Notes under the pieces: model-generated
What the model saw: only the letters and a program-made list of their open reading frames with translations
Database searches by the model: none
What the model was told of the DNA's origin: nothing
Source: a virus
IMG/VR virus record: IMGVR_UViG_3300030430_003122
Location: 64,315-86,122 of that record
Length of the DNA: 21,808 nucleotides
Direction: 5' to 3' (one strand)
Made by a program: the position numbers and the translations under genes
Shown here: piece by piece, positions 2,337 through 19,130 of the stretch
Layout: each line of letters starts with the position of its first letter
Position numbering within the stretch: position 1 is the first letter of the stretch

Positions 2337-2577
2337 ACTCTTTCCAGACAAAGTATCCTGCAATGCTACACAGACATAACCATAACATTAAATTTGTTGG
2401 ATCGAAGAATGATAATTCTAAATAAGTTTCGTATCCTAGTTTATCCCCTGCTCCCAGTGGGACATCAACCGGAGATGCTGCCTCATCTAGACTCATCCTG
2501 TTACCAAATGGTGATGTTTGTTTTTTAACAGAACTACACCCAGCGATAAATGGTAAAGAAAGTAAAAACTTTTTCAT
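2308..2577 (-). CDS. Small lipoprotein with C-terminal membrane helix; candidate unimolecular spanin
   Basis: The 89-residue product begins with a lipoprotein signal: two Lys, a short hydrophobic stretch and the lipobox I-A-G-C, with lipidated Cys at about residue 14. A second hydrophobic segment lies near the C terminus (NLMLWLCLCSIAGYFVW), followed by Arg/Lys. A lipid anchor at one end and an inner-membrane helix at the other is the architecture of u-spanins such as phage T1 gp11, which fuse the outer and inner membranes in the last step of lysis. The segment between is only about 45 residues, short for spanning the periplasm. It overlaps the holin-like gene upstream by 4 bases, which supports a lysis role. 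Spanin is an inference. Confidence 0.6.
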   Translation of the reverse strand: MKKFLLSLPFIAGCSSVKKQTSPFGNRMSLDEAASPVDVPLGAGDKLGYETYLELSFFDPTNLMLWLCLCSIAGYFVWKEFRRVRPKSS

Positions 2578-3026
2578 CGAGTCCTTCCAACCGCAGAACC
2601 AAAATAGAATCCCACGATGGTGACGAGGATCTGTCTGTTCTCTGTCGTGAACAAGTATCCGTTAACGGGAACAAACTCTGTCTCGCTATATGTCCCGAAT
2701 AGACCAAAGAAGTCTAGCGGGTGTGGTCTGCTCTCAACCAACTCAACCACGGTGGGGACCGAGAAGAATGGTAGGATGAATGGTGCGAGAATGGTTCCGA
2801 ATAGAATGCATAAAACGATGAATCGTCGCACCCACTTACCAGCATCACTGCTGACTCGTTCGATTGCTTGATTATACGATTCGTTAGATGCCTTGTTCGC
2901 CTCTAAGATTCGATTGAATCTTTCTTGTTCGTTCTGTCTTTTCTCGGCAAGTGATTTGAAAATAAATCCAGTGACACTACCACCGACCAAAGATAAAAAT
3001 TCTGTTGTAAGTAAACTTTCAATCAT
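2574..3026 (-). CDS. Holin-like membrane protein (three hydrophobic segments)
   Basis: The 150-residue protein has a moderately hydrophobic N terminus (LVGGSVTGFIF), a charged helical region rich in Glu, Arg and Asn (about residues 28-65), a strong membrane segment (FIVLCILFGTILAPFILPFF) and a C-terminal membrane segment ending VGFYFGSAVGR. A glycine-rich end of the FGYxFGSxxGR kind recurs in holin-like proteins of marine myoviruses. Holins time lysis by opening the inner membrane. It overlaps the lipoprotein gene downstream and the gene upstream by 4 bases each. Family recognition is by topology and the C-terminal motif only; a different phage membrane protein remains possible. Confidence 0.55.
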   Translation of the reverse strand: MIESLLTTEFLSLVGGSVTGFIFKSLAEKRQNEQERFNRILEANKASNESYNQAIERVSSDAGKWVRRFIVLCILFGTILAPFILPFFSVPTVVELVESRPHPLDFFGLFGTYSETEFVPVNGYLFTTENRQILVTIVGFYFGSAVGRTR

Positions 3027-3466
3027 GACTTGTTGTGTCTAAGTCTTCCGTCGTTTTGTCTGCGACGAAGAAAGACAACTTCTCCCGTTTCTTCGTTTTT
3101 AATAACAACCGGTTTAGATGGATTTCTCAAAGAATACTTTTTAATCTCCATCCCCAGTTCGGAGTTTTCATCGATATAATTGTTCCACCTAGCACCACGA
3201 ATTTTTCCCGCTTTAAGTGTTTCAAACTCCTCGGCAGAGACGCTAAATGTTCTTCCGTTGTATGACTCTAATTCTTTTTTTCTTTTTTTCTTGAGTAGTG
3301 GTTTGTCAAGACCGGCAACCTTATCAAAAGATCCATCAGTGTTTACACCCCCCTGTGCGATGGACGCTCCTCCAGCGTTGACAGGTGCATCCTCCACAAA
3401 ACAAAGATCAGTTAACTCAATGTTTCCGTATAAAGTCTTTTTTAGTTCTATAAAATTTTTCATCAT
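3023..3466 (-). CDS. Conserved phage-type protein of unknown function
   Basis: The 147-residue product is basic and has a low-complexity middle part (Gly/Ala/Asn-rich, about 28-50, then PLLKKKRKKE). The C-terminal half reads FSVSAEEFETLKAGKIRGARWNNY, then IKKYSLRNPSKPVVIKNEETGEVVFLRR. From memory a C-terminal block of this form (aromatic at a Gly-Lys turn, then NPxKPxxIxNExTGExxFL) recurs in cyanophage proteins of unknown role. The start offers two adjacent Met codons. It overlaps its neighbours by 4 bases on both sides, so it belongs to the same late operon. No catalytic motif seen. Confidence 0.65.
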   Translation of the reverse strand: MMKNFIELKKTLYGNIELTDLCFVEDAPVNAGGASIAQGGVNTDGSFDKVAGLDKPLLKKKRKKELESYNGRTFSVSAEEFETLKAGKIRGARWNNYIDENSELGMEIKKYSLRNPSKPVVIKNEETGEVVFLRRRQNDGRLRHNKS

Positions 3467-3840
3467 AGTCCTCTGAGTATCTGTATTACCTTAGTGTCCA
3501 TTGGAATCCTAACATATTGTTCATCCTCTGGTAAGTAGTTAAGGTAAACCAAAAATGTTTTTAGCAGTGGTTTAAACTTTTCTTCCATGCGATAGAAAAG
3601 CATTCTTGTCGCTGCTTCCATTTCAAACACATTATACAAGATGATGATATGGTTTAATATTAACCGTTCTTTCAATTCACCCGTCGAGTTATATCTACCG
3701 AATAAACGTTTTATGTATTTTATTCGATTTATGTCCTCCTCAAACTCCTCTTTTCCAGAGCAAGCAGGATTGATATAACTTTGCATCGCGTAAATCATAA
3801 AAGCATCATCATCAAACTCATGACAACTATTTTCTATCAC
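3463..3840 (-). CDS. Phage protein resembling the DUF7207 family
   Basis: The frame is open further upstream to 4089, but that part lies inside the preceding gene. I place the start at the GTG at 3840, one base after the stop of the preceding gene, with GGAAG about 10 bases upstream; this gives 125 residues. The protein is helical: EEFEEDINRIKYIKRLFGRY, ELKERLILNHIIILYNVFE, then ATRMLFYRMEEKF and LKTFLVYLNYLP. This order matches a conserved family of T4-like cyanophages (DUF7207, function unknown), recalled rather than searched. Its stop overlaps the next start by 4 bases. Confidence 0.7.
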   Translation of the reverse strand: MIENSCHEFDDDAFMIYAMQSYINPACSGKEEFEEDINRIKYIKRLFGRYNSTGELKERLILNHIIILYNVFEMEAATRMLFYRMEEKFKPLLKTFLVYLNYLPEDEQYVRIPMDTKVIQILRGL

Positions 3841-3841
3841 A

Positions 3842-4150
3842 TCAATGTTCTTCCCATCTTTTCGCTGCGTTATTTTGAGCGACTTTGTTTGCAATCTCAT
3901 TTTGAAATGCTGTTTGCAGTTTGGTCTCTTGGGGCACTCCCTCCGATGCAGTATTAAAATGCTTTTGCACAATTTTTGTAATGTCATCGTTCGTGGTTGG
4001 TCCCTCAAGGGCAGCGATTTCTTCTGCTGCTGCATCAATGTGAGAATTGAACTGGTCAGGAATAACTGGTTGCCCTGAAATAATTTCACTTACCGCGTCT
4101 ACAACATTTTTTAGACTGTCGGTGCCGTTAAATGGATTTGGATCTGTCAT
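3842..4150 (-). CDS. Hypothetical acidic helical protein (102 aa)
   Basis: The ATG at 4150 shares one base with the stop of the large fusion gene upstream (TAATG), which points to translational coupling. The product is rich in Ala, Asn, Asp and Glu, without Cys, signal peptide or membrane segment. It seems mostly helical (SLKNVVDAVSEIISG, HIDAAAEEIAALEG, LQTAFQNEIANKVAQNNAAK). I do not recognise a family. Its place between the fusion enzyme and the DUF7207-like gene suggests a late or virion-related role, by context only. Confidence 0.65.
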   Translation of the reverse strand: MTDPNPFNGTDSLKNVVDAVSEIISGQPVIPDQFNSHIDAAAEEIAALEGPTTNDDITKIVQKHFNTASEGVPQETKLQTAFQNEIANKVAQNNAAKRWEEH

Positions 4151-6378
4151 TATGAATCTCCTTTAAAGTATGTATCTGCAATCTCATTCAATTCACCCGG
4201 AGTCATTTTCTTATATCGCTTCACGATTTCGTCAGTTCCTTCCTCGGGAGGAGAATCAAAATCAATATCTTCCTCTGTGGCATCACGTTTTGCCATCTTA
4301 GTCGCGGTGGCATACATCACCGACTTATAGTCATCACCATAGCGTTTCTTGAAATCCTTCGCACGCTTTTTCAGTGACTTTACATATTTCTCTTTTTTAT
4401 CTTTTTCACCCTTGGTAAGCGTTCGCTCCTCAAGTTCTTGCATAAAGACTTCGCTGGTATGCACAACTACATTATTTTTCTTCATGAATTCGTTTCCAAG
4501 CAGCACAGGATACACGTTGGAACTTCGATCCGACAAAGAAAATTTTACATTTTCAAAAATCTTTCTACCGATCTTCATGTCCAGTTCAACAACATATCTC
4601 TTTTCAATGTTACCACTACCCACATTTATTTCCACCATATCAACCACAGGACGCTTAAACTTCATACCATCAAACATGAATCGAACCGTCCCTTTCGATT
4701 CCTTTACATTCCGTGCATCAACCACCGAGTAAGTAGAATTCCCTGAGTCAATTCTTGCCTTGATAGTTCTGTTTCCAACTTTAACTTTTTCAACACGACC
4801 AACAGTGAACTCCTCCGCTGGTTTTGAAATTAGCAAAGATCTCTCCACGATCTCTTTTACTAATTCATCTCCGTTGATGACACCCGCCTCTTCGTCCTCT
4901 TTAATATATTTTGTATACTCTTGGGCACCGGATCCGGGAGATGCGTTGACTTCAATCGCATATAGTTTTCCGTCTTTGGCGATGGCATGATCTACTCCGG
5001 CAAGAATCGCACCAGACGCTTTTGCTACCCTCTTTACAAATTTCTTTTCTTGCTCCGAGAGTGAATATGGTTCGCTTTCTGCTCCCAACGCCTTATTGGT
5101 CCGGAAATCTTTTTTCGCTTTCATTCTTTTCATTGAAGCGATGATATTTCCGTCCATCACAATACTTCTTATATCACCATCGATGTCTATCATTTCCTGA
5201 ACTAGAATATCCTCACCAGTCTTACGCAAAGACTGAACCACCGACTTAAACGATTCTTGTGAGTCAACCTTCGCAACACCAATTCCCTCCGCTCCGTGAA
5301 GAGATTTGACGATGACCGGGAACTTTCCGCCAACCTTTTTGTGCGCCCGCTCAATCGATGACTCGTTCGTGATCAACGCGGTTCGTGGTGTATTGATATT
5401 TTCTTTTTCAAACAAAATGTGGGTGGCATATTTGTTGCCAACTAGATCAAAAACTTTCTTTGAGTTAATGACCACAGCGTTACTATTATCGAACCCCTCG
5501 ACCAAAGCACGACCACCAGCGGTCTTCATCGCAGATCCACGAACAAACACAATTGTTTCTTTTACATTGACGGTTATATCTTCGCCTTTTTTATCAATGT
5601 TTTCAATTGTCATATCATCGCCTTCAACTTTACCGATGTATGCTGTATCAGAGCGAATGATAGTTGGTCTGTGACCCAACTCTTCAACTGATGTAATAAT
5701 TTTATTTGTTGTGTCCCCTTGCTCGGTGGAACTTATGATAAGAAACCGTTTGAGTTTTTCTTTCTTTTCGGTCTCCTCACGAAGTCCCATGTTTCTTTTT
5801 AGTGTCTCAAACATTTCGCTGGCGATTCTTTCTGACATCTTACTTGGAACTCCACGAAGAAACGCACTGAAGTCATTGTCGGCAACAGCGGCACGCATCT
5901 TCGATGCACTCATACCACTGACATCAGTTGCATCTGGATCTCGTTGACCCGCACTGACTACTTCAAAATCTTTCACTCCCATTTCATCAATGTAGGGAGC
6001 GATGGTTTTTCTAAACTCATCTACACGGTCTCCTCCAACAACGAGAGTTATTTTAGTGTAGTTTCTTTTGACTAAACTTTCGATTGCCTTGAAGACTGTT
6101 TTTGCGTTTCTATCATCAACGATTTTTACACGGGGAAACGCTCGCTTCATATAAAAGACTTTTTCCTTTGGTGTCAAAGGATTTTTCTTTTTATCATTTG
6201 TTCGACTGGGGAAAACAAAGGCATCCGCCCCCAGTTTCTTCGCGGTGGATTGGACAGCATCCACCAGTTTTTCATGTCCGGTGGTAGGTGGTTGGAACCT
6301 ACCAAAAGTGAGGACAGCAGATTTCTCTTTCTGCCCCCTAAGTAGGGACCGCTCGTATAGTGAACGGTATTCTATCAT
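4150..6378 (-). CDS. Fusion: nucleotidyltransferase + RimK-like ATP-grasp ligase + retropepsin-like domain + phage C-terminal motif
   Basis: The frame extends to a TTG at 6393, but the ATG at 6378 overlaps the stop of the small gene upstream (ATGA) and follows AAGGAAGG; this gives 742 residues. Residues 24-200 form a nucleotidyltransferase of the NMNAT/PPAT type (FGRFQPPTTGH, HxGH-like; SGMSASKMRAAV at about 154-165). Residues 210-515 form an ATP-grasp domain like RimK: KSLHGAEGIGV at 358-368, metal-binding EVNASPG at 476-482. Residues 520-645 resemble the RimB/DUF785 aspartyl-protease fold (ARIDSGNS; YPVLLGNEF), with DSG in place of DTG. A C-terminal tail with FKKRYGDDYKSVMYATATKM is, from memory, shared by many T4-like phage proteins. 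Domain calls follow known families; substrate unknown. N terminus resembles a capsid targeting sequence. Confidence 0.85.
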   Translation of the reverse strand: MIEYRSLYERSLLRGQKEKSAVLTFGRFQPPTTGHEKLVDAVQSTAKKLGADAFVFPSRTNDKKKNPLTPKEKVFYMKRAFPRVKIVDDRNAKTVFKAIESLVKRNYTKITLVVGGDRVDEFRKTIAPYIDEMGVKDFEVVSAGQRDPDATDVSGMSASKMRAAVADNDFSAFLRGVPSKMSERIASEMFETLKRNMGLREETEKKEKLKRFLIISSTEQGDTTNKIITSVEELGHRPTIIRSDTAYIGKVEGDDMTIENIDKKGEDITVNVKETIVFVRGSAMKTAGGRALVEGFDNSNAVVINSKKVFDLVGNKYATHILFEKENINTPRTALITNESSIERAHKKVGGKFPVIVKSLHGAEGIGVAKVDSQESFKSVVQSLRKTGEDILVQEMIDIDGDIRSIVMDGNIIASMKRMKAKKDFRTNKALGAESEPYSLSEQEKKFVKRVAKASGAILAGVDHAIAKDGKLYAIEVNASPGSGAQEYTKYIKEDEEAGVINGDELVKEIVERSLLISKPAEEFTVGRVEKVKVGNRTIKARIDSGNSTYSVVDARNVKESKGTVRFMFDGMKFKRPVVDMVEINVGSGNIEKRYVVELDMKIGRKIFENVKFSLSDRSSNVYPVLLGNEFMKKNNVVVHTSEVFMQELEERTLTKGEKDKKEKYVKSLKKRAKDFKKRYGDDYKSVMYATATKMAKRDATEEDIDFDSPPEEGTDEIVKRYKKMTPGELNEIADTYFKGDS

Positions 6379-6506
6379 CCTTCCTTGTTCCAAGGAAAGA
6401 ACTTACGAACCCAGTACCAAATCTTCTTACCACTAAGTGCGCCGAGACCAAACACGACGATGGTATAGAAGACGGTTCCTAAAACGCTAGATGCTAATAA
6501 TTCCAT
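6375..6506 (-). CDS. Small membrane protein (43 aa)
   Basis: ATG at 6506 follows AAGGAG with a 7-base gap. The product has one membrane helix (about residues 4-25, VLGTVFYTIVVFGLGALSG), then a basic aromatic tail (KKIWYWVRKFFPWNKEG). Its TGA overlaps the start of the fusion gene by 4 bases, which also fixes that gene's start. The helix and basic tail could suit a membrane-targeted phage peptide, but I recognise no family. Confidence 0.65.
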   Translation of the reverse strand: MELLASSVLGTVFYTIVVFGLGALSGKKIWYWVRKFFPWNKEG

Positions 6507-6517
6507 TGATTAACTCC

Positions 6518-6691
6518 TTATTTTTTGGTGGACTTTTTCGCACGCTTCTTTGGTGCGGGTTTTACGACGGGAACTTCTGTAACAGTTTCGATTTTGACTG
6601 GAACTTCTACGATTGGTTTAGAACAAATCTCTTCCCGACGAGTATGCTTTGCAATTTGGTATTTTTTACCACTGAATTTTCTGAGTGCCAT
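6518..6691 (-). CDS. Small highly basic protein with Lys/Pro-rich tail (57 aa)
   Basis: ATG at 6691 follows AGGAG with a 7-base gap. The N terminus is basic (ALRKFSGKKYQIAKHTRREE), the middle alternates Val/Pro/Glu (IVEVPVKIETVTEVPVVK) and the end is PAPKKRAKKSTKK, similar to histone H1-like or nucleoid protein tails. It may bind DNA or RNA. It lies between the KxDG protein and the small membrane protein on the same strand with short gaps. No family recognised. Confidence 0.65.
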   Translation of the reverse strand: MALRKFSGKKYQIAKHTRREEICSKPIVEVPVKIETVTEVPVVKPAPKKRAKKSTKK

Positions 6692-6711
6692 TGTGGATCT
6701 CCTTTAACTAT

Positions 6712-7923
6712 TTATTTATCCCAATTCTTTGCTGCATTAAAGTTTGCTTGGGAAAAATTCAATCTGTCTACAAGTTTAAACGCTCGGTTGGACAATCTAT
6801 CGATTGCGACAAACCCTTCCGGGGCGGTGACCTTGAATCCATCATTAGTCTTGAGGAATAGTCCAATGGACTTGACCTCCTCGATTTTACGAACGAGAAT
6901 CATTTTCACATCACGCAAGGCGGCGTGGATAGTAAACATACGAAGCAACGCCTTAGAGTTACTACGAATGTAAGACATCATTTCTTTCTTTGCTTGTTGT
7001 TTCTTTTCTTTACCTTTTTCGCTCTTGAGTTTATCAATGTCGGTATCGAACTTCTTTTCGGTCCACTCCTTGAATCCAGCATATGTTGCGGACGGCGTGC
7101 CGAAAGATCCTTGACGAACGAGAGTATTATAAAAAGTCTTAATATAAAGTTGCATGTTAGGATCAGCAAGGAACTTGTCTAGAACACCCATTGTCTTCCT
7201 GTCCATCATACTACGAATCTTTAATATCTTTTTCTGCACTGCATCAGTTTGTTTGCTTGTAAATGTAGCAGCACCACTATGATCTTTCAAGGTAGCATCA
7301 TCAAACCACACACTGGGTGTCTTTTTGAGATAAGATATATCAGGACCGAATGATGCCTTCATCGATTGCATATCGCTTCCGGTATATTCGGTGTGAAAGA
7401 TAATCCCCATTTTTGCTTTTACAATTTGTTTTGCCAGATCACTGTTAGTGGGAACTGCGTATGTGATCGTGTTGGGAGTGAATGTAATATAGTTTACTCC
7501 GTCGATAGTGTCAGATGATAGATCATCGCTATACATCATATCACCCTGTAGCACATTCTTGATACCCAGTTTTGATAAGTTTTCTAATGCAACTTCTAAC
7601 TTGGCGGCAAGTCCCCCGGTGTGGTTTCTTTTGATATCTGCTTTGGTATAGTTTATTTTTGGGGTGACATTGAAAACACTCTTTGAACCTACGAAGAACT
7701 TTCCGTTCTCGGGGTTGATGCCCGCGAAAACTGCGGGGGCACCGTCCCACTTGACGGTAATATTATATTTCTTGGATGACTTCCCCGCTAACATTTTTAC
7801 AAGAGAACTTGCAAATTCGATTGCCTCTCTTGCACCCCGAGATCCGTTATTGATCAACTCGTCTTCGAGGTGTTCGAGATGTAGATTTTTTTCCTCAGAC
7901 AGAAATCCTTTAAAATCAAACAT
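6712..7923 (-). CDS. Phage protein with ligase-type KxDG motif (nucleotidyltransferase-like)
   Basis: The frame begins at 7950, but the ATG at 7923 has GGAGG 9 bases upstream and lies one base after the preceding stop; this gives 403 residues. It contains the adenylation motif of DNA/RNA ligases: TVKWDGAPAVFAG with Lys58-x-Asp-Gly, then GKFFVGSKS, NVLQGDMMYSDD (possible motif III) and MGIIFHTEYTG (possible IIIa). Ahead of it is LHLEHLEDELINNG, which I recall from T4-like cyanophage proteins of family DUF6267. The C terminus (250-403) is helical and basic. A polynucleotide ligase or capping-like activity is an inference from motif order; motifs IV and V are not clear to me. N terminus MFDFKGFLSEE resembles a capsid targeting sequence. 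Confidence 0.75.
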   Translation of the reverse strand: MFDFKGFLSEEKNLHLEHLEDELINNGSRGAREAIEFASSLVKMLAGKSSKKYNITVKWDGAPAVFAGINPENGKFFVGSKSVFNVTPKINYTKADIKRNHTGGLAAKLEVALENLSKLGIKNVLQGDMMYSDDLSSDTIDGVNYITFTPNTITYAVPTNSDLAKQIVKAKMGIIFHTEYTGSDMQSMKASFGPDISYLKKTPSVWFDDATLKDHSGAATFTSKQTDAVQKKILKIRSMMDRKTMGVLDKFLADPNMQLYIKTFYNTLVRQGSFGTPSATYAGFKEWTEKKFDTDIDKLKSEKGKEKKQQAKKEMMSYIRSNSKALLRMFTIHAALRDVKMILVRKIEEVKSIGLFLKTNDGFKVTAPEGFVAIDRLSNRAFKLVDRLNFSQANFNAAKNWDK

Positions 7924-7924
7924 A

Positions 7925-8641
7925 TCAATATCCCTCCATGCCATACACATGAGCGGGTAAGTCTCTATATTTTAATTGACTAATCTCATCGGTTTTCATC
8001 GAAGCGTATAATTTATTACCTAGATCAACTCCTGCTTCGTGGTCGCTAGGATAGTGCAGACCGGCGTTGAGTCTGGACTGACCACACTCTTCTGCCATAT
8101 CTACGAAACTCTTAGCGTGGTCTCTGTGGAGACCTGAGAGGTATAGTGCGACGAGACGAGACTGCGTGCTGTGTCCACTGGGATATGATGGAGTCGCTGC
8201 TGTGCCGCTCTTGAGGGCGGACAGAGGGATACCTAGACTCTTTGCCAACTGCTTTGGTCTAGGTCGATTAAAAATATATTTTTGCTTTAAGACGATAATC
8301 GTAGATTGACTAACGAGATCATCCAAAAATTTCTTATCGTGTTTCAAGTTATTATCTTTAAGATATTTTATAAAAGGAACAACCAAGTCAAGATCCCATT
8401 TTCTAAGTAACTCATCATTGTCTTTTTTCATTTCCACGCGATCTTGTAATTCCATGAGTTCCACCCGTGTCTCATCAGAAGAATTGGACGGGGGCGAAGA
8501 GACAAGACTCTGATCGGAGTTCACGGGCAGAATCTCATGGGGTTTATTCATGATGCGACTATGTTTAGTCGTTGGTTCATCGAAAGTAAGATCCTCTGGA
8601 CTTTGCTCTTGAAGAGAGATGTACGACTTAAAAGATTTCAT
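7925..8641 (-). CDS. PAP2-family acid phosphatase
   Basis: The 238-residue protein carries the whole PAP2/class A acid phosphatase signature in order: KYIFNRPRP (K121, R128), PSGH at 154-157 and SRLNAGLHYPSD (S189, R190, H196, D200). These residues bind and transfer phosphate through a phosphohistidine intermediate. No signal peptide or membrane segments are visible, so unlike many family members it looks soluble. The N terminus MKSFKSYISLQEQ resembles the capsid targeting sequence of its neighbours, and residues 15-60 look disordered. ATG at 8641 overlaps the preceding stop (ATGA). Substrate unknown; a nucleotide or phospholipid headgroup phosphatase is possible. Confidence 0.88.
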   Translation of the reverse strand: MKSFKSYISLQEQSPEDLTFDEPTTKHSRIMNKPHEILPVNSDQSLVSSPPSNSSDETRVELMELQDRVEMKKDNDELLRKWDLDLVVPFIKYLKDNNLKHDKKFLDDLVSQSTIIVLKQKYIFNRPRPKQLAKSLGIPLSALKSGTAATPSYPSGHSTQSRLVALYLSGLHRDHAKSFVDMAEECGQSRLNAGLHYPSDHEAGVDLGNKLYASMKTDEISQLKYRDLPAHVYGMEGY

Positions 8642-8871
8642 CCACCACCCTTTGCGATCATAATCGCTGCCATGTAATCGTTGGCATCTTTTTCATTTTT
8701 ATAAGTTTTCTTCAACTCCTTTGCGTGTTGTCCGCCCGGAGTCATGATACGCTGCCTTTTATTTTTACCGTCTTTAGTTTTTACAGTCTTAAATTTGTCT
8801 GCAAAAACACCAAAAGTACCATCGGGCATCTTGCGAACATCCTCGTCTATAAACTGTTTAAAAGATAACAT
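8638..8871 (-). CDS. Small basic phage protein (77 aa)
   Basis: ATG at 8871 follows GGAG with a 9-base gap. The product is MLSFKQFIDED, then a basic region with KTVKTKDGKNKRQRIMTPGG and a C-terminal Ala/Met-rich helix ending in KGGG. The first 11 residues match the T4-like capsid targeting pattern, and IDE is a possible prohead protease site. If cleaved there, a 68-residue basic peptide would remain, of the size of T4 internal proteins. Function not known. Confidence 0.7.
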   Translation of the reverse strand: MLSFKQFIDEDVRKMPDGTFGVFADKFKTVKTKDGKNKRQRIMTPGGQHAKELKKTYKNEKDANDYMAAIMIAKGGG

Positions 8872-8900
8872 AATTTTTACTCCGTAATAAGTTAAAGAAT

Positions 8901-9983
8901 TTATATTTTAGTAAAGTCGATGTTGTTGTTGAAGGAAATTTCTGGGGTCGCACCGAGGAACTCAATAAGGTTCTTTGCGGATTTGACAACAAACTCTTTG
9001 ATCTTAACCATCATCTTTCGGAGGAACCCGAGGAACTTGTTAAATGCTCTCTTAAGTAAGTTCTCGTCGAGAGTACCCTCTGCAAGAAGTTGTCCGATCT
9101 CTTCGTAACTCTCTGTAAGTTTATCTACAATAAGACCGATGGCAGACCAGTAACGATAACGCCCGGTTTTGACTCCACCTGTTTTTTCACTGGTGGTCTT
9201 GAACCGGACGGAAACTTTCATCTTACTTGCAACTTTTCTTACATATGCCTCGTCACCAACGGGAACTAGTTTGATGGTGTTTCCATCGTCGGAGACTGAG
9301 AGGAAGTGGGAACAGGTTCCGTCACTACCACCGAACTTGACATCGCCGGTCATTGCCTCATATGCAAATTCATATGCAAAGTCTGGGTTACTTGCAAATA
9401 ACTTTTTCATGTCTGCCATGAGAGTCTTGTGTGCTTCGTTCGCTGCTTTTACAACTTTATCTTTACCGAGTTTAATCTCACTCTTGAGATCGCTCTGTGC
9501 AATGCTTGAGGGAGACAAGTCAAGCATTGCCTTTTCGATGCGAGACGCGAGACCATTCAGGTTCAGACCAAGGCGATCGACAGCGGCATAAAAAGTAGCC
9601 ACCGACTCATTTCGACCACCACTCATCAACTGTGCAGCACCACCAGTCTTAAGAGACATCTTGTGGTTACCGATGATGAAGTCGGTCTTCGGGGTCTTCG
9701 TGGAAGCAGGAACCTTTCCGGGCAACCAGTATTGTGACCAGAGTTCGGTGACTGCGAGTTGGTCTGCACCCAACACTCTACCCTTGCCCTTTACACCCTG
9801 CTTGCGTAGTTGCTTTGCAATTCTCTCGCCTGCACCATCCTCGATACCAAACTTTGAAACTGGTTGTGGTTCTTTGTTGATTGCTGCAATAATAAATTCT
9901 TCCATCTCCTCACCACGGGATCTTGCTTCCGTGAGGGATTGCTGATTCTTTGCACTTTCGTATAGGTCTTTAAAGTCTTTCAT
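8901..9983 (-). CDS. Phage protein, possible PD-(D/E)XK-type nuclease
   Basis: The 360-residue product starts at ATG 9983 with GGGAG about 10 bases upstream. The N terminus MKDFKDLYESAKNQQSLTEA resembles the capsid targeting sequences of the next genes, with LTE as a possible protease site. Residues 95-125 contain TDFIIGNHKMSLKTGGAAQ: an Asp (101), a beta strand, then S-L-K (112), the layout of the PD-(D/E)XK core where E can be replaced. Glu80 lies before it. The C-terminal 60 residues form a basic amphipathic helix region. The nuclease call rests on this one motif; structural protein is the alternative. First gene after the terminator at 10023-10050. Confidence 0.6.
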   Translation of the reverse strand: MKDFKDLYESAKNQQSLTEARSRGEEMEEFIIAAINKEPQPVSKFGIEDGAGERIAKQLRKQGVKGKGRVLGADQLAVTELWSQYWLPGKVPASTKTPKTDFIIGNHKMSLKTGGAAQLMSGGRNESVATFYAAVDRLGLNLNGLASRIEKAMLDLSPSSIAQSDLKSEIKLGKDKVVKAANEAHKTLMADMKKLFASNPDFAYEFAYEAMTGDVKFGGSDGTCSHFLSVSDDGNTIKLVPVGDEAYVRKVASKMKVSVRFKTTSEKTGGVKTGRYRYWSAIGLIVDKLTESYEEIGQLLAEGTLDENLLKRAFNKFLGFLRKMMVKIKEFVVKSAKNLIEFLGATPEISFNNNIDFTKI

Positions 9984-10022
9984 TTATTAAGTCTCCCTTG
10001 ACCCAATATGTAGGCATAAAAG

Positions 10023-10050
10023 AAAAGCACCACCCGAAGGTGGTGCTTTT
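10023..10050 (-). terminator. Strong intrinsic terminator hairpin
   Basis: A perfect 12-bp stem (AAAAGCACCACC with GGTGGTGCTTTT) closes a four-base loop. On the - strand it is followed by TTTTCTTTTA, so it ends transcripts arriving from the tmRNA unit. The A-rich flank on the other side means it could also act on + strand RNA. Confidence 0.85.
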
Positions 10051-10085
10051 GAGGGTTGCTATTTCGACTACTTTAACCCACAAAG

Positions 10086-10331
10086 TTAGTCCTCCTCTAC
10101 AATGCCGAGGATTTGGCGTATATCATGGGACTCTGGACTGTCGTAATTACCAGAACCTTTCGGGTGACTGTACGATTGACTGTGTACCCTACTCAGACCA
10201 TCCTGCACACCCCGCTAAGGGTCATCCCGCAAGCATTTCTGCATCGCTAAGGACAGGTCGCTAAACCATTCAGGATTTGCACTATCCCCAGTCAGAGGAT
10301 CATTATGCGAGTCCCAGAAAGAGACGATCAA
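10086..10331 (-). pseudogene. Open frame interrupted by one in-frame TAG (38 + 42 codons)
   Basis: Read from a TTG at 10331, the frame encodes MIVSFWDSHNDPLTGDSANP and on to KCLRDDP, then a TAG (10215-10217), then continues RGVQDGLSRVHSQSYSHPKG to a TAA at 10086. Both halves look protein-like. The start is weak: no ATG in frame and only AAGAAAGAG upstream. A 7-bp hairpin (AAAGAGA/TCTCTTT) overlaps the start region. Possibilities are a gene broken by a nonsense mutation, two micro-ORFs, amber readthrough, or non-coding RNA. It lies between the 42-residue gene and the terminator of the tmRNA unit. Confidence 0.35.
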
Positions 10332-16088: not shown

Positions 16089-16520
16089 TTACTTTCTACG
16101 ACGAGTTGTAAAAAGACTTGCAAAACCTAGAAGTGCGAATGCTCCGGGTGTAGGGATTGTGCTGGGTGCGATGGTGTCAAAGAAAATCTTTTGCGAATCG
16201 TAAAATGAAAACGCGACACCAAATGTGTCCTCATATCCGAATCCGTTACCGAAAAGAATAACACTTTCCATTTCACCGGGATCAAGATCGTTTCCGAAAC
16301 CAAGGTCAAGATCAAACGCTCCACCGACTGCCCAATTTGTAATTGCAATGGTTGAGTCTTGTGTGTTTAGCAAAGTGTAAAGATACTTGTCACTTTCCTC
16401 CCACCACTTTACACTATATTCGAGAGTAAAGTTTGGAGTCTCTAGGATCTGGGAGTCGTAGTAGTCCGGGGGTGGAGCGATACTTGAAAGAATAGATGCT
16501 GATAGAATAGTTGCGTACAT
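16089..16520 (-). CDS. Secreted PEP-CTERM-type protein
   Basis: The 143-residue product has a short hydrophobic N terminus (MYATILSASILSSIAPP) fitting a signal peptide. A beta-rich acidic middle follows. The C terminus is the tripartite PEP-CTERM signal: IPTPG, the hydrophobic helix AFALLGFASLFTT, then RRRK. In Planctomycetes and others, exosortase recognises this signal and sorts proteins to the surface. AAGGA is 7 bases before ATG. The middle (YSVKWWEESDKYLYTLL; FDLDLGFGNDLDPGE) matches no family I know. No exosortase is visible here, so a host enzyme would be needed. The gene lies between two tRNAs, a common site for acquired genes. Confidence 0.82.
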   Translation of the reverse strand: MYATILSASILSSIAPPPDYYDSQILETPNFTLEYSVKWWEESDKYLYTLLNTQDSTIAITNWAVGGAFDLDLGFGNDLDPGEMESVILFGNGFGYEDTFGVAFSFYDSQKIFFDTIAPSTIPTPGAFALLGFASLFTTRRRK

Positions 16521-18963: not shown

Positions 18964-19130
18964 TATGCTACTTCCTTTGCTGCTGCGAGTACGAGTCCGA
19001 AGTTTGCCAGTGAATACGATATCCAAACTAGCGACCAAGGGTAGTCCCTCTTTATAAAGTATCCGATACCAACGATAGCATATAGAACACCTGCAATCAA
19101 CGGACAGAATTTTACAAGTAGGTCAATCAT
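18963..19130 (-). CDS. Small membrane protein (55 aa)
   Basis: ATG at 19130 overlaps the preceding stop by 4 bases and has GGAG 9 bases upstream. Two membrane segments: CPLIAGVLYAIVGIGYFI and LVWISYSLANFGLVLA, with RDYPWS between. The pattern Y-A-x-V-G-x-x-Y and W-x-x-Y-x-x-A-N is seen in small phage membrane proteins, from memory. Function unknown. Confidence 0.65.
   Translation of the reverse strand: MIDLLVKFCPLIAGVLYAIVGIGYFIKRDYPWSLVWISYSLANFGLVLAAAKEVA

Follow-up and report, generated by a model that had tools for sequence, protein, structure and literature searches.

Bacteriophage T4 carries the internal proteins IPI, IPII and IPIII in its head by means of an N-terminal capsid targeting sequence (CTS; Mullaney and Black, 1996; reviewed in PMC9026906), a 10-residue tag with aromatic residues at positions 4 and 7 and an L/I-x-E site that is cut by gp21. 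Mutagenesis of IPIII assigned residues 4 and 7 to targeting and residues 8 and 10 to processing (PMC9026906). IPIII begins MKTYQEFIAE, as had been stated in an earlier note, IPII begins in the same way and IPI begins MKTFKEF. Most documented cases of the T4 CTS so far are a handful of small proteins from T-even phages. The locus described here, from a marine T4-like bacterial virus, resembles this system in the tag itself, in the varied protein bodies found behind a conserved tag, and in having non-essential genes located near one another. It differs in that the T4 proteins are small and basic whereas the cargo here includes multi-domain enzymes, and in being a contiguous exchangeable island of marine T4-like phages; there is no homology between the bodies, those found here matching PAP2, DUF6267, cytidylyltransferase/RimK/Zn_protease or nothing.

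The T4 ADP-ribosyltransferase Alt offers a further parallel, as an enzyme that resides in the head, is processed by gp21, is injected and acts on the host, but it is a single unrelated enzyme encoded outside any such island. Closer to the present case are enzymes of cyanophage virions (cytidylyltransferase/NMNAT, SAM hydrolase and kinases; PMC10665884, PMC9602691, PMC9146016, PMC3037559), which are homologous or similarly tagged and some of which share a gene neighbourhood with the island. No packaging mechanism is given for them and the tag is unremarked in the bearing sections of those papers, and the enzymes could be dismissed as contamination; the tag connects them with the T4 CTS. The polyvalent proteins that phages and conjugative elements encode (PMC5512222) are also packaged multi-domain enzymes, with delivery alongside the DNA presumed early, but they are very large fused polypeptides, often with a peptidase of their own, whereas here separate proteins carry one short tag. 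In phiKZ-like giant phages, which belong to another lineage, a gp21-related protease removes N-terminal propeptides from inner-body and ejection proteins by cutting behind a Glu; this comparison is drawn from a review only. No earlier description of a CTS in cyanophages was found in the literature searched, an absence that remains unproven. CTS packaging as such is established for T4, and what appears to be new is that marine phages apply it to an exchangeable island of cargo genes.

The five tagged genes and their products

The window analyzed is a stretch of 21,808 nt (positions 64,315–86,122) of the 86-kb record IMGVR_UViG_3300030430_003122. Five tagged genes are spread over six consecutive genes (window 4150–9983; Table 1), each with a Shine-Dalgarno-like stretch upstream. 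The earlier note had listed five N-termini in this region, each with an [LI]-x-E tripeptide in its first 20 residues, and both claims held: all five are present, and the tripeptide ends no more than 19 residues from the start in 5/5. The exact IPIII register (residues 8–10) is found in two of the five. Aromatic residues occupy both position 4 and position 7 in three (the 77-aa, PAP2 and DUF6267 proteins), while in protein 1 and the fusion protein the aromatic at 4 is paired with Leu at 7. The codons differ among the five genes. The T4 late promoter TATAAATA was not found upstream of the cluster, and as it is missing from the entire genome its absence at the cluster is uninformative.

Table 1. 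Tagged genes and their N-terminal tags (window coordinates; a slash marks the predicted cut)
Feature	Position	Strand	Sequence	Tag residues	[LI]-x-E site
Protein 1	8901–9983	-	N-terminus MKDFKDLYESAK		
Protein 1 tag	9983–9927	-	MKDFKDLYESAKNQQSLTE/A	1–19	LTE 17–19
77-aa protein	8638–8871	-	N-terminus MLSFKQFIDED		
77-aa protein tag	8871–8842	-	MLSFKQFIDE/D	1–10	IDE 8–10
PAP2 protein	7925–8641	-	N-terminus MKSFKSYISLQEQ		
PAP2 tag	8641–8606	-	MKSFKSYISLQE/Q	1–12	LQE 10–12
DUF6267 protein	6712–7923	-	N-terminus MFDFKGFLSEE		
DUF6267 tag	7923–7894	-	MFDFKGFLSE/E	1–10	LSE 8–10
Fusion protein	4150–6378	-	N-terminus MIEYRSLYERSLL		
Fusion tag, degenerate	6378–6352	-	MIEYRSLYE/R	1–9	LYE 7–9
Possible weak sixth member, not counted	3023..3463	-	start MKNFIELKKTLYGN; relatives' start MKSFEEFKQYTQEQ		

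The earlier description of the products as five enzymes held only in part. Protein 1 (360 aa) is nuclease-like by motif only, having a TPKTD...SxK pattern that is invariant among its relatives; a Pfam search gave no family, the match to phrog_22045 is weak, and a fold search returned no significant match and left a PD-(D/E)xK nuclease fold unconfirmed. The glutamate of its LxE is kept without exception in 22 relatives, although its spacing varies, and 42/66 relatives are strictly tagged. The 77-aa protein is basic and no evident enzyme, and carries the tag in the exact F4/F7/I8/E10 register. The PAP2 label held for the 238-aa phosphatase of that superfamily (PF01569, E = 1.8e-11, 44.3 bits, cut-off 27.2). 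The KxDG ligase-like protein (403 aa) matches DUF6267 over the entire profile (PF19782, E = 6e-118, 394.8 bits, over the cut-off, positions 1–376 of 376). Its ligase-like K58-x-D60-G61 motif is invariant. A fold search placed the protein nearest to DNA ligases and capping enzymes, but only at a non-significant E = 0.085, and there was no sequence match in the PDB; 55 of 78 relatives are strictly tagged. The nucleotidyltransferase/ATP-grasp fusion (742 aa) was correctly but incompletely named, as a cytidylyltransferase-like domain (PF01467) and a RimK-like ATP-grasp domain (PF08443, 119.6 bits) are joined by a third, RimB-like Zn_protease domain (PF05618, 50.9 bits), the latter two over their cut-offs; among solved structures, RimK-type glutamate ligases come closest to it. 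A PADLOC search gave nothing convincing.

Frequency and conservation of the tag

Tags were scored by a fixed rule: an aromatic at residue 3–4, F/Y/L three residues later and [LI]xE inside the first 22 residues. The rule was derived from the T4 internal proteins, but it was fixed after the five had been seen. Its final form permits overlap, an earlier stricter regular expression with a poor choice of start codons having missed two of the five; the start model used agrees with the annotation for 32/40 starts on Melnitz. A genome-wide motif search, proposed in the earlier note, matched 5 of the 118 called genes of the whole record, exactly those of the cluster, against about 0.5 expected (0.62 with shuffled N-termini, p = 0.002; 0.45 with internal methionines), which is more than chance would give. 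Five matches inside six consecutive genes arose 1 time in 200,000 random placements. Because the rule was set after inspection of the five, a cross-family test was added, in which a weight matrix built from DUF6267 tags only was used to rank all 118 genes. The 77-aa protein ranked 2nd, PAP2 3rd, protein 1 8th and the fusion 45th; the possible sixth member ranked 18th. We regard the tag as strong in the 77-aa, PAP2 and DUF6267 proteins, intermediate in protein 1 and weak, when taken alone, in the fusion. As the fusion's own tag is degenerate, the inference that it is packaged rests on relatives; tagged cytidylyltransferases of related phages do occur in virions.

An intact gp21-type prohead protease is encoded in the same record (PF03420, E = 2.1e-40); its conserved His and Ser motifs, GHP and GVSSRG, match those of T4. 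Among nine phages with the protease 44/1978 genes match the rule, vs 1/485 in five phages without it, where there is no enrichment; in DLP6, S-SZBM1 and S-SCSM1, each taken alone, the excess of tagged genes is not significant. In DUF6267 relatives, which were collected by homology of the body, N-terminal positions 4, 7, 8 and 10 are conserved, with selection acting on the protein residues as in IPIII. The neighbours of DUF6267 genes in metagenomic relatives are tagged in 52/681 cases on the same strand, vs 4.25 expected, and in 0/166 on the opposite strand. Close relatives differ by gene exchange between protein 1 and PAP2, and every gene that is swapped carries a tag. The islands of Melnitz and HTVC008M have their genes in the order seen here. 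Relatives replace the proteins yet retain the tag, and the cluster is in this sense a cassette-like island.

Virion proteomes of related phages

Detection of tagged relatives in virions has been shown by others, in related phages only and not for this phage. The published virion list of S-CREM2 includes five of its six tagged proteins (P = 0.0026); one tag match in this phage, a terminase-small-subunit-like protein, is likely a false positive. In S-CREM2 ORF154 the predicted cut lies behind MKNFSSFLTE. The virion cytidylyltransferases of S-SM1, S-SCSM1 and S-SZBM1 are tagged, as is the virion kinase of S-CRM01, and the mature virions of S-CREM2, S-SCSM1 and S-SZBM1 that contained tagged enzymes had been purified on CsCl. 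The DUF6267 protein of S-SZBM1 is untagged and missing from that phage's virion list, in keeping with packaging by the tag; against it, the strongly tagged S-SZBM1_191 and S-SZBM1_192 are not among the 30 proteins detected in its virions. The authors of the S-CREM2 and S-SCSM1 studies could not rule out carry-over. That the cytidylyltransferase is the sole packaged protein was considered and rejected, as the S-CREM2 virion contains several other tagged families.

A proposed head-cargo island and its alternatives

The explanation that we favour, and consider likely as a whole, is that this cluster of five genes is a head-cargo island. All five proteins would carry a T4-type CTS, in which an aromatic residue at position 4 is followed by an aromatic or Leu at 7 and then by [LI]-x-E, and which would dock them onto the scaffold core during prohead assembly. 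Elsewhere, the same record encodes the gp21-type protease, which would cut behind the Glu so that the mature proteins stay in the head until infection, when they would be ejected along with the DNA. The present analysis shows the tag, the protease gene, the conservation of the correct residues and the tag-keeping gene exchange. The earlier suggestion of packaging in the head is supported, and packaging with the DNA has good support short of proof for this phage, by independent lines, namely the protease, conservation of the IPIII residues, protease-linked enrichment, tag-keeping swaps and the published virion proteomes of related phages, which include many of the tagged proteins. There are no virion data for this phage, and the presence of the proteins in its own virions, cleavage at [LI]xE, injection and any role in the host are inferred.

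Three alternatives may be considered. First, the tagged proteins may enter the prohead core for assembly only and then be degraded or lost, with no delivery. In favour of this, T4 gp21, gp22, gp67 and gp68 are core proteins cut up by gp21, the tag matrix picks up gp21 and gp22 as well, and S-SZBM1_191 and _192 went undetected. It is nevertheless unlikely, given the tagged enzymes in mature purified virions, and for a conserved assembly job one would not expect a set of nucleotide and phosphate enzymes that can be exchanged. Second, the N-terminus could be another signal, for instance for late-gene translation or for binding to another phage structure, and the virion enzymes could be the lysate carry-over that was not excluded for S-CREM2 and S-SCSM1. 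This we hold to be very improbable, as it is the protein that is under selection, at positions 4, 7, 8 and 10, while the codons differ, carry-over would give tagged proteins no preference, and phages without the protease have no excess. Third, chance resemblance of short N-termini combined with shared ancestry within each family, which the short, degenerate motif and a fusion that alone would not stand out might suggest, is highly unlikely for the whole cluster in view of the shuffled and internal-methionine nulls, the opposite-strand and no-protease controls, the clustering and the cross-family matrix, and stays possible only for the fusion's own N-terminus.

If the head-cargo explanation is correct, the tag proposes which proteins abundant marine phages deliver with their DNA, a hypothesis that is directly testable in existing mass spectra through cleaved N-termini, and for protein delivery it is a source of candidate peptides for targeting and of naturally occurring enzyme cargo. 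It is tempting to go further, and the evidence tips slightly towards doing so, in supposing that an exchangeable cargo island, its proteins united by a single cleavable tag for head targeting, is general among marine T4-like phages, with cargo that comprises ligase-like proteins, kinase, nucleotidyltransferase, RimK, PAP2, adenylate kinase, zeta-toxin-like proteins and many unknowns. This would amount to a delivered-effector system with a repertoire legible from sequence alone. Tagged relatives of the PAP2 protein are found in L166–L171 and L203, and the slot of the 77-aa protein varies between close relatives, holding other tagged genes or none in L166–L171.

Five tagged genes in one phage

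Among the genes of the 86,122-base virus record, of which the window is 64315-86122, is one for a T4-type prohead protease (PF03420, E = 2.1e-40). It is adjoined by portal, gp22-like and gp23-like genes that were named by position and sequence without a family search. Five genes in the window carry an N-terminal tag resembling the T4 capsid targeting sequence (CTS), and the bodies of their products belong to unrelated families. The earlier note had described five neighbouring proteins; the existence of their genes, their adjacency and the quoted starting residues all held, and all five lie on the minus strand. Its nuclease reading of protein 1 is unconfirmed, and in its nucleotidyltransferase/ATP-grasp fusion the third domain, Zn_protease, had gone unnoticed.

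Coordinates of the tagged genes and of other features
Source	Feature	Position	Strand	Remarks
Window	Protein 1	8901-9983	-	360 aa; no Pfam match
Window	77-aa protein	8638-8871	-	Basic; no family match
Window	PAP2 phosphatase	7925-8641	-	Family match
Window	DUF6267 protein	6712-7923	-	Family match
Window	Fusion	4150-6378	-	Cytidylyltransferase-like, RimK-like ATP-grasp and Zn_protease domains; closed by lysine-rich module KRYGDDYKSVMYATATKMAKR (residues about 660-701), common to other phage proteins (phrog_12788, phrog_727)
Window	TonB-family protein (TIGR01352); dockerin-like and PEP-CTERM-like C-termini (latter two by eye only)	1100-1738; 3-1112; 16089-16520	+; +; -	
T4 (NC_000866)	gp61.1	18966-19130		Hypothetical, 54 aa; adjoins primase; MKTFKEFIKED
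S-SCSM1	C-terminal tag-like peptide of a virion protein	91626-91835		KKRTFKEFLEYIE
S-CREM2	C-terminal tag-like peptide of a virion protein	7704-10313		PKTFRDFLN
L085 (metagenomic relative)	Paralogue-like tagged genes, unknown family	6439-7323; 7908-8810		
L109 (metagenomic relative)	Paralogue-like tagged genes, unknown family	2415-3368; 3709-4629		

The earlier note proposed a motif search of the whole genome, and random occurrence was not borne out. A single rule was applied, under which residue 3 or 4 had to be aromatic and the third residue after it F, Y or L, with [LI]xE inside the first 22 residues. It matched 5 of the 118 called genes, where 0.62 were expected from shuffled N-termini and 0.45 from internal methionines. 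The five fall inside six consecutive genes, a clustering equalled by 1 in 200,000 random placements. The rule was set from T4 internal proteins, but only once the five had been seen, and therefore a weight matrix built from DUF6267 N-termini alone was scored on the other families. Among the 118 genes it ranked the 77-aa protein 2nd, PAP2 3rd, protein 1 8th and the fusion 45th; thus three of the five tags are strong and that of protein 1 is intermediate, while that of the fusion is weak judged by its own sequence. In T4, the top eight of the matrix include gp61.1, IPI, gp21, IPII, IPIII and gp22. The best T4 match is gp61.1, which is therefore a candidate for a further T4 head protein.

Conservation of the tag and its link to the prohead protease

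Mutagenesis of IPIII assigned residues 4 and 7 to targeting and 8 and 10 to processing, with the cut after L/I-x-E (review of Black's work, PMC9026906). Eighty metagenomic DUF6267 loci were gathered through the conserved body, without selection on the tag. Phe occupies position 3 or 4 in 54 of 61 distinct full N-termini; aligned on it, these have F/Y/L/I/M at 7 (53/54), L/I at 8 (47/54) and Glu at 10 (46/54). In the protein 1 family a strict tag is found in 42 of 66 relatives, and the LxE Glu is invariant in a 22-sequence alignment despite its widely differing distance to the aromatic peptide. Judged by every feature testable here, the tag is a T4 capsid targeting sequence. Protein 1 also has a second conserved L-x-E (residues 300-302, E302 invariant) preceding a lysine-rich C-terminal helix (region 300-343), possibly a further protease cut.

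Across nine phages with Peptidase_S77, 44 of 1978 called genes were tagged, versus 1 of 485 in five phages without it (P-SSP7, PSS2, HTVC010P, N4 and FelixO1; 1.83 expected from shuffling; Fisher P = 0.001). Genome by genome, T4, S-CREM2, Melnitz, S-SM1 and this phage showed a clear excess and HTVC008M a marginal one; DLP6, S-SZBM1 and S-SCSM1, each taken alone, gave none that reached significance.

Same-strand neighbours of DUF6267 were tagged in 52 of 681 cases (4.25 expected from shuffling) and those of protein 1 in 56 of 603 (4.6 expected); no opposite-strand neighbours were tagged (0/166 and 0/126, respectively). DUF6267 and PAP2 are themselves among the neighbours of protein 1, and some of the contigs in that set are near-identical, so the two counts are not independent. 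The slot that separates protein 1 from PAP2 varies among close relatives, whose protein 1 is 86-89% identical: it holds the 77-aa gene in this phage, a 372-aa and a 153-aa gene in L166, a 494-aa gene in L167, the 372-aa gene again in L170 and no gene in L168, L169 and L171. All genes inserted there in the relatives compared start with the tag. Among the tagged neighbours at other loci are an adenylate kinase, a protein that fuses a cytidylyltransferase with a zeta toxin, a protein with a weak NT5C-like match, as well as PAP2 and cytidylyltransferases. Melnitz has a separate RimK-like ATP-grasp protein with its own tag (LTQKFSQFITEE); in this phage the same domain stands behind the cytidylyltransferase in the fusion. 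The paralogue-like tagged genes lying near each other in the islands of L085 and L109 might represent a duplicated effector family; the only one scanned (L085 6439-7323) had no Pfam match.

Tagged proteins in published virions

The S-CREM2 virion proteome comprises 52 proteins (PMC10665884), and five of the six tagged S-CREM2 genes are on that list (P = 0.0026): a SAM hydrolase (MKDFDSFLEE), an APH/ChoK-like kinase (VKRFDAFLTEE), a cytidylyltransferase (MKNFSSFLTEA), ORF15 and ORF155. The sixth, which we take to be a terminase-small-subunit-like protein, is probably a false positive. By matrix score, six of the top seven are virion proteins too. Cytidylyltransferases reported in virions of S-SM1 (T4-GC190; MKKFSAFLNEA), S-SCSM1 (MKSFLQFLKEA) and S-SZBM1 (MRFRQFIIEA) are all tagged. 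The kinase of S-CRM01, which is cited as a virion protein, served as a check from outside this sample; it starts MISFDQFLSEKK. In S-SZBM1 the untagged DUF6267 protein is absent from the virion list and its tagged neighbour is listed. Against packaging, S-SZBM1_191 and _192 have excellent tags, yet are missing among the 30 virion proteins detected. The S-CREM2 authors could not exclude carry-over (PMC10665884).

Tag-like peptides also close two virion proteins, and it is possible that the targeting peptide functions at the C-terminus as well. A second module (~AxxLxLxxxGxGxxxD, residues about 20-45) follows the tag or tag-like peptide in S-CREM2 ORF12 and ORF14, S-SM1_190 and S-SCSM1_91, and is common to unrelated virion enzymes.

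Proposed delivery route and cargo

The present analysis shows the tag, the protease and the comparative evidence; that the proteins are packaged in this phage, cleaved and injected is an inference. In the route that we consider most likely, the tag would dock each of the five proteins on the prohead core, the gp21-type protease would then cut it off, and the detagged protein would remain in the filled head and enter the next host along with the DNA. The tag would act as the capsid targeting sequence does in T4. The five proteins are not homologues of IPI-IPIII. Incorporation of varied proteins by a CTS is not a new principle, as a review already suggests that it may allow this in T4-like phages (PMC9026906). 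To judge by the literature searched, what is new is the spread of the CTS among marine T4-like phages, its presence on a contiguous exchangeable island with several enzymes, and its match with virion-associated cyanophage enzymes.

The RimK-like domain of the fusion is nearest to protein glutamate ligases, and modification of a host protein is therefore a reasonable guess, though no more than a possibility. In DUF6267 the KxDG motif is invariant; by fold the protein comes closest to ligases and capping enzymes, without a significant match.

Elsewhere in the window, the TonB-family protein and the dockerin-like and PEP-CTERM-like C-termini may be a clue to the host or to genes from it. Such C-termini are common in planctomycetes.
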